From contig JACQCN010000006.1 of NCBI GenBank assembly GCA_016201575.1, forward strand, positions 1 to 12,364: 12,364 nucleotides of DNA. Reading direction: 5' to 3'. This DNA comes from Candidatus Rokuibacteriota bacterium (GTDB lineage Bacteria; Methylomirabilota; Methylomirabilia; Rokubacteriales; CSP1-6). A program made the position numbers and the translations under genes. Of the stretch, positions 1,639 through 6,326 are shown in pieces. Under the pieces are notes generated by a model that worked only from the letters and a program-made list of their open reading frames with translations, ran no database searches and had not been told where the DNA came from. Position 1 is the first letter of the stretch. Each line of letters starts with the position of its first letter.

Positions 1639-1739
1639 TCGGAGGGGGCCTCGACGGCCCCCTCCGAAGCCCCCAGGACAGGGTGCGCCGGCGCTCGAAC
1701 ACCGGCGCCAGGGGGCGCGATTGGTTCACACGCTCTGAG
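1639..1739 (+). repeat. Two-hairpin intergenic repeat, copy A
   Basis: Begins 7 bases after the J-protein stop. Hairpin 1 (1639-1667) has a perfect 12-bp stem TCGGAGGGGGCC with loop TCGAC. The second module starts TGCGCCGGC and carries CTCGAACAC; compared with copies B and C it lacks about 9 bases, so its hairpin is rearranged (GCGCCGG 1685-1691 with CCGGCGC 1702-1708). It ends GGGCGCGATTGGTTCACA plus CGCTCTGAG, right before the clpB ribosome site. No T-tract follows hairpin 1. Confidence 0.85.
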
Positions 1740-1748
1740 AGGGACAGC

Positions 1749-4349
1749 ATGGTCATCAGATTCGACAAGTTCACGGTGAAGGCCCAGGAGGCGGTCCAGG
1801 CGGCCCAGTCGCTCGCGGACCAGCAGAGCCACCAGGCGATCGAGCCCGAGCACCTGCTGCTCGCGCTGATCCAGCAGCAGGAGGGCGTGGTGGGGCCGCT
1901 GCTGGCCAAGCTGGGCGCCCCCGCCGACGCGATCCGGCGCCAGGTCGAGGCCGAGCTGGCCAAGACACCCAAGGTGCGCGGCGGCGCGGGCCAGTACGCG
2001 GGCGCGCGCCTCCAGGCCGTGTTCGAGCGCGCGCAGAGCGAGGCCGAGCGGCTGCACGACGAGTACGTCTCCGCCGAGCATCTCCTGATCGCCATCGCCC
2101 AGGACCGCGAGGGCGCGGCCGGCCGCGTGCTCGCCGCCAGCGGCGTGACCGCCGAGGCCATCTACAAGGCGCTCGTCGACGTGCGCGGCACCCAGCGGGT
2201 GACCGACCAGAACCCCGAGGAGAAGTACCAGGCCCTCCAGCGCTACTCGCGCGACCTGACGGAGCTGGCCCGGAAGGGCAAGCTCGACCCGGTCATCGGC
2301 CGCGACGAGGAGATCCGCCGCGTGATCCAGGTGCTGTCGCGGCGCACCAAGAACAACCCCGTGCTCATCGGCGAGCCGGGCGTCGGCAAGACCGCCATCG
2401 TGGAGGGGCTGGCGCAGCGCATCGTCGCCGGGGACGTGCCCGAGGGCCTGAAGGGCAAGCGCTTGGTCGCGCTCGACATCGGGTCCATCCTCGCCGGCTC
2501 CAAGTACCGGGGCGAGTTCGAGGACCGACTGAAGGCGGTGCTGAAGGAGATCACGGAGTCCGAGGGGCAGATCATCTGCTTCATCGACGAGCTGCACACG
2601 ATCGTGGGCGCGGGCGCGGCGGAGGGGGCGGTGGACGCCGCCAACCTGCTCAAGCCCCAGCTCGCCCGCGGCGAGCTGCGGTGCGTGGGCGCCACCACGC
2701 TCGACGAGTACCGCAAGCACGTGGAGAAGGACCCGGCGCTGGAGCGGCGCTTCCAGCCGGTGACGGTCCGCGAGCCCTCGGTCGACGACACGATCGCGAT
2801 CCTCCGCGGCCTCAAGGAGAAGTACGAGGTCCACCACAAGGTGCGGATCAAGGACGCGGCGCTGGTGGCGGCGGCGGTGCTCTCGCATCGCTACATCAGC
2901 GACCGCTTCCTGCCCGACAAGGCCATCGACCTCGTCGACGAGGCGGCCTCGCGGCTCCGGATCGCCATCGACTCCATGCCGCCCGAGATCGACGAGATCG
3001 ACCGGCGCATCATGCAGCTGCAGATCGAGCGCGTGTCGGTCGCGCGGGAGACGGACGAGGTGTCGCGCGAGCGGCTGGCCCGGCTCGACGCCGAGCTGGC
3101 CGAGCTGCGGGAGAAGTCCACGGCCCTCAAGACCCAGTGGCAGGCCGAGAAGTCCGCCATCCTCCGGATCAGCAAGATCAAGGAGGACATCGAGGCCACC
3201 AGGCAGGCGATGGCCGACGCCGAGCGCCGGGGGGACCTGAACCGCGCCGCCGAGCTGCGCTTCGGCACCCTGCTCTCCCTCGAGAAGCAGCTCGAGACCG
3301 AGAACACGCGGCTGGCCGAGCAGCAGCGGGACGGCCACATGCTGCGCGAGGAGGTCGACGAGGAGGACATCGCCCAGACGGTGGCGAAGTGGACCGGGAT
3401 CCCGGTGAGCCGCCTCCTGGAGGCCGAGGTCCAGAAGCTCGTGAAGATGGAGGAGCGGCTCGCGCAGCGGGTGGTCGGCCAGGAGGACGCGATCCGGGCC
3501 GTGTCCAACGCGGTGCGCCGGGCGCGGTCGGGCCTGTCCGATCCCGACCGCCCGATCGGCTCGTTCCTGTTCCTCGGGCCGACCGGCGTGGGCAAGACCG
3601 AGCTGGCGCGCGCGCTCGCGGAGTTCCTGTTCGACGACGAGCGGGCGATGGTCCGCCTCGACATGTCCGAGTACATGGAGAAGCACACGGTGGCGCGGCT
3701 CATCGGCGCCCCGCCGGGCTACGTCGGGTACGAGGAGGGCGGGCAGCTCACGGAGGCGGTGCGGCGGCGGCCGTACTCGGTCATCCTGTTCGACGAGATC
3801 GAGAAGGCGCATTCCGATGTTTTCAACGTGCTGCTCCAGCTTCTCGATGATGGTCGTCTCACCGATGGTCATGGGCGGACGGTCGATTTCAGAAACACGG
3901 TCGTGATCATGACCTCCAACCTCGGGAGCCACCTGTTCCGGGAGTACGAGAGCCCCGAGAAGGTCCGCCCGCTCCTCCTGGCCGAGCTGCGCAACGCGCT
4001 GCGGCCCGAGTTCCTGAACCGCATCGACGAGATCGTGATCTTCTCGCCGCTGCACCGCGAGCAGATCGAGAAGATCGTCGACATCCAGCTCGGGCACCTG
4101 AAGCGGCGGGTGGCCGACAAGCGGATCGAGCTGGAGGTGACCGACGCCGCCAAGGCCCTGCTGGCCCGCGAGGGCTACGACCCGACCTTCGGCGCGCGGC
4201 CCCTCAAGCGCACAATCCAGCGCCTGGTCCAGGACCCGCTGGCGCTCCGGCTGCTCCAGCGGGAGTTCGCCGAGGGCGACACCGTCACCGTCGACGCCGA
4301 CAACGGGGACGTCGTCTTCCACCGCACGGTGGCCGCGGAAGTCGTCTGA
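1749..4349 (+). CDS. clpB: ATP-dependent disaggregase ClpB (Hsp100)
   Basis: Hexameric cytoplasmic AAA+ machine that threads aggregated proteins through its pore with DnaK/DnaJ. The 866-residue product is the normal length. Order: Clp N domain (about 1-145); NBD1 with Walker A GEPGVGKT (K214), pore loop KYRG (252-255) and Walker B FIDE (D280-E281); a coiled-coil M domain (about 414-528), which separates ClpB from ClpA; NBD2 with GPTGVGKT (K616), pore loop GYVGY (657-661), Walker B LFDE (D682-E683) and sensor region TSNLGS. No IGF-type ClpP-docking loop was noticed, as expected. ATG 1749 is chosen because [15 protein letters not shown] matches the family N-terminus and an AGAGGGA ribosome site precedes it; the upstream in-frame codons are repeat A. 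Codons 3810-3893 are unusually rich in T-ending forms (see findings). All catalytic motifs are intact. Confidence 0.97.
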
Positions 4350-4356
4350 GTCTATG

Positions 4357-4469
4357 TCGGAGGGGGCCTCGACGGCCCCTCCGAAGCCTCCCCCAGGGTC
4401 GGTTGCGCCGGCCAAGCCGGCGCCCGAACACGCGGCGCCCCCGGGCGCGATTGGTTTACACGCTCTGAG
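4357..4469 (+). repeat. Two-hairpin intergenic repeat, copy B
   Basis: Starts 7 bases after the clpB stop. Hairpin 1 (4357-4384) has the same left arm and TCGAC loop as copy A but one C fewer in the right arm. Hairpin 2 is GCGCCGGC (4405-4412), loop CAA, GCCGGCGC (4416-4423), a perfect 8-bp stem. The tail GGGCGCGATTGGTTTACA plus CGCTCTGAG matches copy A with one difference. A short open frame across it (4354-4566) is proline/alanine filler, not a gene. Confidence 0.85.
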
Positions 4470-4475
4470 TTCGCC

Positions 4476-5174: not shown

Positions 5175-5183
5175 GCTCCTCAT

Positions 5184-5212
5184 TTGACACGTCGCGCACA
5201 GCGGCATAGAGT
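5184..5212 (+). promoter_or_regulatory. Strong sigma-70-type promoter of the exported hydrolase gene
   Basis: Perfect TTGACA (5184-5189), exactly 17 bases, TAGAGT (5207-5212). It has the best -35 in the window and lacks the CACG extension seen at the other -10 boxes. Predicted start near 5219 leaves about 45 bases of leader before ATG 5265, which has GGAGG at 5252-5256. Confidence 0.75.
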
Positions 5213-5264
5213 CGGTCCACGTGCCTACTAGTTTCCCGATCCGCTCGTCACGGAGGACCACGGC

Positions 5265-6242
5265 ATGCCCGAGGAGACCAGTCGACCGATTCGTTTGAGC
5301 CGCCGCGGGTTCCTGCAGACCGCCGGAGCCGGGGTGGCCGGCGCCGGGATGCTCCTCGCGGAGGGCGCCAGCCAACCGGTCGCCGCCAAGCTGGACACGG
5401 AGTTCAACGGCCAGCTCATCGAGGGCGCCGGCGGCGTCAAGCTGTACGTGGAGCGGGCCGGCAGCCTCTCGAAGCCGCCCATCCTCTTCATCCACGGCTT
5501 CAGCCAGTGCCGGCTGTCGTGGGACCCCCAGTTCACGAGCGACCTGGCGGCGAAGTTCTACGTCGTGCGGATGGACATCCGCGGGCACGGCGCGTCGGAC
5601 AAGCCCCCGGACCTCGCGGCCTACCAGAACGGGAAGAACTGGGCCGACGACGTCGACGCGGTGATCCGGACCTTCCGCCTCAAGCGCCCCGTGCTCGTGG
5701 GCTGGTCGTACGGCGGCTTCATCATCTCCGACTACGTGCGCCACTACGGGCAGCAGGGCATCGGCGGCATCAACTTCGTCGACGCCGCGACCGAGATCGG
5801 GTCCGACGAGGCGGCCCGGATGCTCGGCCCGGAGTTCCTGCCGCTGTTCCCGGGGCTGCTCTCCGACAACGCGGTCGACAGCATGGCCGCGCTCCAGAGC
5901 TTCGTGCGGATGCTCACCCACGAGCCCGTGCCCGCGCGCGACTTCTACTTCTACCTCGGCTTCAACGCCGCCGTGCCGGCCTACGTGCGCCAGGGGCTGG
6001 CGCAGCGCAAGCTCGACAACACGGACGTGCTGAAGTCGCTGACGGTGCCGGTGCTGATCACGCAGGGCCGCGAGGACAAGATCGTGCTGCCGGCGGCCGC
6101 CGACCACATCGCGCGGCAGGTGCCCAACGCCAAGCGCGCGACTTACGTGCAGTGCGGCCACGCGCCGTTCCTGGAGGTCGCGCAACAGTACAACCAGGAC
6201 CTGGCGGAGTTCGTGGAAGCGGCCCGGCCGCGCCAGGGGTAG
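5265..6242 (+). CDS. Tat-exported alpha/beta hydrolase
   Basis: A 325-residue alpha/beta-fold hydrolase with a twin-arginine leader: SRRGFLQ at residues 12-18, a hydrophobic Ala/Gly stretch (19-35) and a likely cleavage site near AxA about residue 41, so it probably acts folded in the periplasm or outside. Core motifs: oxyanion HGF (77-79), MDIRGHGASD (103-112), nucleophile elbow GWSYGG (S148), acid D271 in GREDKIV and H299 in CGHAPF, a complete triad. Closest general types are non-haem chloroperoxidase/esterase-like enzymes (the MDIRGHG-S block), but the substrate cannot be read from sequence. Start fixed by GGAGG 8 bases upstream and by the leader beginning there. A dedicated promoter and following repeat suggest a single-gene unit. 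Confidence 0.93.
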   Translation: MPEETSRPIRLSRRGFLQTAGAGVAGAGMLLAEGASQPVAAKLDTEFNGQLIEGAGGVKLYVERAGSLSKPPILFIHGFSQCRLSWDPQFTSDLAAKFYVVRMDIRGHGASDKPPDLAAYQNGKNWADDVDAVIRTFRLKRPVLVGWSYGGFIISDYVRHYGQQGIGGINFVDAATEIGSDEAARMLGPEFLPLFPGLLSDNAVDSMAALQSFVRMLTHEPVPARDFYFYLGFNAAVPAYVRQGLAQRKLDNTDVLKSLTVPVLITQGREDKIVLPAAADHIARQVPNAKRATYVQCGHAPFLEVAQQYNQDLAEFVEAARPRQG

Positions 6243-6247
6243 GTCAG

Positions 6248-6326
6248 TCGGAGGGGGCCTCGGCGGCCCTCTCCGATGCCCCCCAGAACCGAGTTGCGCC
6301 GGCGGAGCCGGCGCTCGAACACGGCG
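6248..6326 (+). repeat. Two-hairpin intergenic repeat, copy C
   Basis: Begins 5 bases after the hydrolase stop. Hairpin 1 (6248-6276) keeps the TCGGAGGGGGCC left arm; the loop is TCGGC and the right arm GGCCCTCTCCGA has one change that becomes a G-U pair in RNA. Hairpin 2 is GCGCCGGC (6296-6303), loop GGA, GCCGGCGC (6307-6314). Similarity fades after CTCGAACACGGCGG; the GCGATTGGTT tail is absent. Confidence 0.8.

Follow-up and report, generated by a model that had tools for sequence, protein, structure and literature searches.

A small palindromic repeat family abutting stop codons in one rokubacterial order, probably of a mobile kind

Gene junctions in one order of Rokubacteria harbour a palindromic repeat, three copies of which (A, B and C) are found in the stretch analysed here, the first 12,364 nt of contig JACQCN010000006.1 (the window), taken from a rokubacterial metagenome-assembled genome (MAG) that is 77% complete. 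The repeat has a core of about 75 nt, comes in two sister subtypes with variable tails, and is inserted into gene junctions such that the end bearing its first hairpin (hairpin 1) abuts a stop codon (pre-existing in the empty sites read), mostly in sense orientation or between convergent genes. The family is specific to one rokubacterial order, and its members are probably small, non-autonomous mobile elements. In our best reading it is a new, order-specific family of a known kind, which works like the repetitive extragenic palindromic (REP) sequences and the Rickettsia palindromic elements (RPEs). An earlier note, made from the window alone, had proposed either a REP/BIME-like, possibly lineage-specific family or a 3′-end stability or processing element, and this interpretation as a whole is partly supported: the family was found to be real and confined to its lineage, and a 3′-end role as the reason for its being was not upheld.

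Two covariance models were built, R1 from 37 copies and R2 from 20, and the genome search that the earlier note had named as a check gave many further copies in the window's own genome and in its relatives. Copy A used alone as a BLAST query hit about 45 distinct places in its own genome, and R1 found at least 150 copies there, all 150 scored candidates being matches, type-B copies (defined below) included. Searching named genomes for exact matches to the 29-nt type-A hairpin gave at least 107 stretches; the 80 stretches among the matches listed were all from Candidatus Rokubacteria or Rokuibacteriota. When 95 genomes of the phylum were searched with R1 under stricter filters, so that the counts per genome are lower bounds (up to at least about 51), matches were found in 61, that is in 59 of the 60 genomes of the own order (own included) versus 2 of the 35 of other orders, with one match in each of these two. 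R2 gave no match in two genomes of other orders. The single genome of the own order without a match, G068, is a congener. Amplification is erratic within a genus: by R1, three congeners held at least 150, at least 151 and 0 copies, the zero-copy congener being 94% complete, and by R2 the counts were 0 in G068, 1 and 131 in G060 and G061 of one genus, 78 in G070 and at least 152 in G086.

The core consists of a 12-bp hairpin 1, the unpaired CCTCCCCC, an 8-bp hairpin 2 and TCGAA, an architecture common to both subtypes in the own-genome copies read. Hairpin 1 is TCGGAGGGGGCC-TCGAC-GGCCCCCTCCGA in type A and TCGGAGGGGGGC-TCC-GCCCCCCTTCCGA in type B, and is followed in both by CCTCCCCC, a short variable stretch, GCGCCGGC-NNN-GCCGGCGC and TCGAA. 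The C-rich spacer CCTCCCCC is strongly conserved, with all eight positions matched in 120 of 166 type-A and 24 of 37 type-B copies, and the first 30 nt of the copies have a median of −28.5 kcal/mol. No stop codon interrupts the core in 201, 195 and 198 of 207 copies for the three forward frames respectively, which is little surprising given its G+C content. Tandem groups of the repeat occur (for example L037 and L042). The two hairpins of a unit differ in sequence and lie side by side, and are thus not arranged as the inverted REP singlets of a REPIN. That changes tend to spare the fold, as the earlier note had it, is weakly borne out: among the 37 own copies one pair showed a double change, which 171 of 500 shuffles equalled, and three other measures exceeded most shuffles (27, 21 and 21 of 500 were as high for paired cells, double-changed cells and covariation score).

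Two other identities of the unit were entertained and rejected. An intramolecular triplex was suggested because, in type A and type B alike, CCTCCCCC is parallel-complementary to the purine arm GGAGGGGG, at all eight positions in the copies just counted versus 0.1% and 0.3% of shuffles, and was dropped because arm and spacer do not covary: 12 copies have the arm GAAGGGGG and none of them the matching CTTCCCCC. Integron attC sites, which the GCCCAAC start of the long subtype had brought to mind, were judged on position alone and set aside because the repeat is found after core genes, clpB among them. Further hairpin families of similar layout were seen near gene ends (L033 at 1560, L055 at 1322, L211, L151, L205 and L111), with the sequences GTCGGGGGGAGCG...CGCTCCCCCCGAC-ACCCCCC and GTGGGGGCC...GGCCCCCAC-ACCCC.

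Empty sites at 93–96% identity indicate that the copies are insertions. In the closest clean pair, 96% identical, the G070 sequence is GTGTAAGGAGG, and G072 (L282, L171) carries an insert there that separates TAA from GGAGG; at about 93% identity to L143, locus L281 of G072 has an insert at most 4 nt behind a TGA. The dnaJ-clpB junction reads GGGTGA-element-GAGAGGGACAGCATG in the window; in the same-genus genome G067 (L259) it is empty and reads GGATAAAGGACAGGGCATG. This junction could be scored in 40 of 48 clpB loci, the own locus counted among them, with the element in the own genome only and absent in 39, and within 250 nt behind clpB the element was present in three of the 48 loci (G000, G086 and G087) and absent in 45. 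Some copies are bounded by CTAG or CTGAG on both sides and others are not; CTAG occurs no more than 12 nt from the edge in 39 of 208 copies, greatly exceeding its background rate of 0.28 per kb, an excess partly explained by the contribution of TAG stop codons. The idea which these ends had suggested, that the element donates the stop codon, was rejected because the stop is already present in the empty sites read.

Two further sites deserve mention. Between two genes of G070 (L284, 13591–13664) lies a full element; at the corresponding place G072 (L282) has the first 16 nt of one, after which comes an rpmJ-like (L36) reading frame, and rpmJ may have been lost here by deletion between two copies. 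At about 4815–4900 of L292 (G087:C184) there is another insert of 86 bp, not found in L201, whose ends CTAGTGCCGTTCCAAC...GTTGGAACGGCACTAG are inverted and which looks like a miniature inverted-repeat transposable element (MITE) with a CTAG target, unrelated in sequence to the repeat and directly beside a copy of it.

Placement was analysed in 81 contigs of the own genome (33 chosen for copies, 40 and 7 by number only, and the window's), in 100 of the 107 named loci (7 duplicates dropped), all selected by exact hairpin 1, and in 20 larger stretches selected for copies; gene calls came from a home-made caller based on codon usage, and its start codons are uncertain. This DNA held 209 full copies; setting aside 11 within called genes and 15 at the edges of contigs, 183 were classified. 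The counts are given without p-values because copies are non-independent samples. Sense copies in co-directional gaps numbered 90, antisense copies 43, copies in convergent gaps 47 and in divergent gaps 3, the same DNA having 1185 co-directional, 145 convergent and 157 divergent gaps. Among the 132 sense or convergent copies with a non-negative distance, 89 start 0–8 nt behind the stop versus 20.6 expected under even placement in the gap space left over; at the other end of the copy, the tail stops 8 nt or less short of the following gene in 11 cases versus 20.6 expected. Neither orientation nor distance from stops is therefore random and many further copies exist, so that the refuting outcomes set out in the earlier note did not arise; the systematic position behind stop codons that the earlier note had read from three copies holds for the family.

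A general habit of these genomes to place hairpins at 3′ ends was considered as a cause of the peak and discarded: a strong hairpin is present at 85 of 544 repeat-free gene ends versus 48 in shuffles, and these ends show no hairpin peak near the stop. The stop-codon rule alone does not explain all copies, since in 17 of 44 antisense or divergent copies, versus 5.6 expected, hairpin 1 lies 8 nt or less from a called start, starts being uncertain. Antisense copies near starts (such as those of L194, L197 and L200) leave little room for a ribosome-binding site, and in several antisense copies inspected by eye there are stop-like triplets on the other strand beside hairpin 1. Repeat-bearing ends of the own and related genomes also have TGA more rarely, and TAA and TAG more commonly, than repeat-free ends. 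The share of TGA is 0.51 of 45 repeat-bearing versus 0.68 of 407 repeat-free ends in the own genome, and 0.33 of 132 versus 0.61 of 948 in the other genomes.

The 11 intragenic copies are found in 10 called genes, and an in-frame insertion can be read in three of them, the remaining eight being less sure. The clearest is in an Ogt/Ada-type repair gene (L211), whose own-genome homologue (L038) has no insert. The copy in L133 lies in the linker joining the two thiamine-pyrophosphate domains of a phosphonopyruvate-decarboxylase-like protein and that in L189 lies within a Mo-binding subunit; homologues of both have shorter or different linkers at the insert position. P0002 was apparently inserted twice, and in L124 and L298 the element makes up a C-terminal extension of what reads as a methionine-aminopeptidase-like protein, with empty relatives of L124 ending earlier. 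The motif SEGA[ST] was present in 11 of 240 homologues retrieved, and is so short that it proves nothing alone. Others of the 11 may be errors of the gene caller.

The zero-copy congener, the changes of presence at 93–96% identity and the in-frame copies together fit mobile DNA better than a 3′-end role. A trans-acting enzyme other than a Y1 tyrosine transposase of the RAYT type would move the element as DNA, and copies would survive where they are least harmful, directly behind stops, away from promoters and in in-frame linkers. The 12-bp G+C hairpin lies mostly 2–7 nt behind the stop, which would be close to the mRNA entry of a terminating ribosome; the ribosomal helicase site is near +11. 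By analogy with REPs near stops in Escherichia coli, it may have a secondary effect on termination, ribosome recycling or 3′-to-5′ decay: Liang, Rudd and Deutscher reportedly found in 2015 that REPs of E. coli lower translation through tmRNA when they lie no more than 15 nt from a stop codon.

Several observations count against the mobile reading. No mobiliser was identified, PF01797 being the sole transposase family searched. Nine of 16 G086 hits could be placed in G087 (about 94% identity) and all nine were present there, as were four of four in the reverse direction. Three other close pairs gave three rows present (two of these a single site counted from both sides), four absent and one unplaced, hence four of seven placed rows absent, and the absent rows include one partial copy with its first 16 nt kept and one facing 130 nt of other sequence. 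By these counts copies clearly turn over in one genus, with no sign of it in another, and movement is not frequent everywhere. The filled and empty sites compared show no constant target duplication, and the added flanks vary by site, with 3–5 nt ahead of the core and 10 to about 75 nt behind it. Most of the DNA examined was chosen for holding copies, and its genes come from the home-made caller with uncertain starts. Finally, placement is stricter than harmlessness alone would predict, so that a selected function or targeted insertion may play a part.

Targeted insertion would mean that an enzyme recognising single-stranded DNA or RNA that forms hairpins at the ends of genes directs the element to translation stop sites, with hairpin 1 coming to lie a few nt behind the stop, at about the earliest place where a terminating ribosome would not have to melt it. 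We regard this as improbable. If true, the element would parasitise gene ends harmlessly and could be exapted as a 3′-end module. It also appears unlikely that the repeat is a selected 3′-end element, whose hairpin would block 3′-to-5′ exonucleases or tune termination and recycling and whose distance from the stop would be held by selection. The strict distance and sense bias, unseen at repeat-free gene ends, speak for such an element, as do the conserved spacer, the lack of a T-tract and the sharing of all placed G086 copies with G087, but it is hard to square with a 94%-complete congener that has none, with presence behind clpB in just 3 of 48 loci, with the antisense and intragenic copies and with a covariation that is weak and mixed.

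Movement by a RAYT, as for the REPs of E. coli and Pseudomonas, is very improbable. Like REPs as portrayed in PMC3733652, the repeat is a small palindrome present in more than 100 copies, mostly 3′ of genes and some of them intragenic. The RAYT domain PF01797 was, however, not detected in the own genome (77% complete) or in 47 of 58 further genomes of the order, and was found in 11 of the 59 altogether. G068 has three matches to it and no repeats, and G086 (93% complete), with its high R2 count, has none; this mismatch indicates, with the reserve that MAGs are incomplete, that RAYT is not the general mobiliser. The tags of REPs were rare at the hairpin-1 edge, with GTAG in 2 and CGTC in 23 of 208 copies, the hairpin-2 end not being counted. 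The family is a high-copy short palindrome outside genes and mostly 3′ of coding sequences, as REPs are, and it was not filed as REP proper because the tag and RAYT tests failed. Transcription terminators without a T-tract are the least credible reading of all, for although convergent gaps are enriched (47 of 183 copies versus 145 of 1487 gaps) and a strong hairpin lies behind stops, 90 of the 183 copies are in sense orientation between co-directional genes, including one immediately ahead of the clpB ribosome-binding region, five T in eight follow either hairpin in 3 of 207 copies, in agreement with the lack of a T-tract claimed earlier, and a congener lives without the family.

The features of the window are collected in Table 1. 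As was first read from the sequence, hairpin 1 begins at 1639, 4357 and 6248, in the orientation of the gene and at distances of 7, 7 and 5 nt from the preceding stop codon; the stop before copy A is TGA, that before B is TGA at 4347–4349 and that before C is TAG at 6240–6242. The genes concerned had been called J-protein, clpB and hydrolase, and Pfam agrees with DnaJ_C, ClpB and alpha/beta-hydrolase domains; a Uma2 gene (Pfam) is located between copies B and C. The hairpin 1 loops are indeed TCGAC in A and B and TCGGC in C, and a C-to-T change in copy C gives a G-U pair. Hairpin 1 is shared by all three copies, with one C missing from the 3′ arm in B. The CAA and GGA loops given for hairpin 2 are correct for B and C and do not apply to A, in which half of hairpin 2 is deleted and GCGCCGGC is joined directly to GCTCGAA. 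The tail of the long subtype ends in GCGCGATTGGTTYACACGCTCTGAG, a tail that copy C lacks, and in copy A the tail end adjoins the clpB ribosome-binding region. In the own-genome search the E-values were 5e-10 (A), 8e-13 (B) and 4e-15 (C), the three copies being themselves among the 37 sequences of the model. These values, like the BLAST result for copy A, go beyond chance, whereas folding of the whole copy beats shuffles clearly for A alone (z −3.4, none of 200 shuffles as good), B (z −1.4, 18 of 200) and C (z −1.7, 11 of 200) folding less clearly. Rfam had no match in the window above its gathering score.

Table 1. Positions of the repeat copies and of an adjacent hairpin in the window
Feature	Position	Strand	Remarks
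Copy A, long subtype	1639..1739	+	Between DnaJ-like gene (stop 1629–1631) and clpB (ATG 1749)
Copy A, hairpin 1	1639–1667	+	
Copy B, long subtype	4357..4469	+	7 nt behind clpB stop
Copy B, hairpin 1	4357–4384	+	
Copy B, hairpin 2	4405–4423		Loop CAA
Copy C, short subtype	6248..6323	+	5 nt behind hydrolase stop
Copy C, hairpin 1	6248–6276	+	
Copy C, hairpin 2	6296–6314		Loop GGA
Separate hairpin behind copy B	4476..4509	+	Outside the repeat; terminator-like with weak tail, read from sequence

The separate intrinsic terminator proposed behind copy B stands as a perfect 12-bp stem (4476–4506); its tail is TTT only, and the terminator scan of the window, with 2 sites in total versus 2.2 in shuffles, did not list it. 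Elsewhere in the window, 6532–6633 holds two direct tandem copies of 51 nt each, 94% identical. The DnaJ-like gene has no in-frame start codon between the preceding stop and 741 (580–741); a J-domain-like stretch precedes 741, and DnaJ_C alone, in 741–1628, was above the Pfam cut-off.

With this family, a high-copy palindromic repeat that spans an order becomes known in uncultured bacteria for which the titles and abstract openings of the literature surveyed mention no such repeat, and REP-like behaviour is seen apart from RAYT transposases. A natural test of whether stop-proximal hairpins affect translation or mRNA decay is offered by the congeners with 0 and with at least 150 copies, together with filled and empty orthologous sites.

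Among known systems, ERIC, Correia/NEMIS and other MITEs are likewise small inserts without a gene of their own, but no constant target duplication was found in the rokubacterial repeat. RPEs, which insert in frame inside genes, are alike in being palindromic, lying between genes as well as inside them and adding peptide; most rokubacterial copies, in contrast, are intergenic and abut stops, and the two are likened by kind. In the literature, RPEs of R. conorii are said to end in CGTC and REPs to carry GTAG or CGTC tags, those with CGTC having no dedicated transposase, and to lie mostly downstream of genes, with some located within genes for replication and repair (PMC3733652); stem-loops are concentrated at 3′ ends and in convergent gaps, with Ype, Efa and Bor preferring 3′ ends (PMC1590033); REPINs and RAYTs are described (PMC3116915); and REP mRNAs are targets of RNase R and PNPase (PMC12320835). 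Placement behind stops is apparently tighter than for E. coli REPs, where in a rough comparison the gene end was within 8 nt at 3 and within 15 nt at 5 of 11 loci; this control was small and approximate, covering four stretches of 50 kb (one without a hit) scanned with a REP pattern, the loci being read by hand against coding-sequence tables and one hit inside IS1 being left out. The rokubacterial unit differs from REP, BIME and REPIN also in being asymmetric, with two hairpins and a C-rich spacer, in its rare edge tags and in hosts where mostly no RAYT was detected. It resembles them in consisting of short palindromes with more than 100 copies per genome, mostly downstream of genes and some intragenic, erratic in occurrence between related genomes and found here too in tandem groups.

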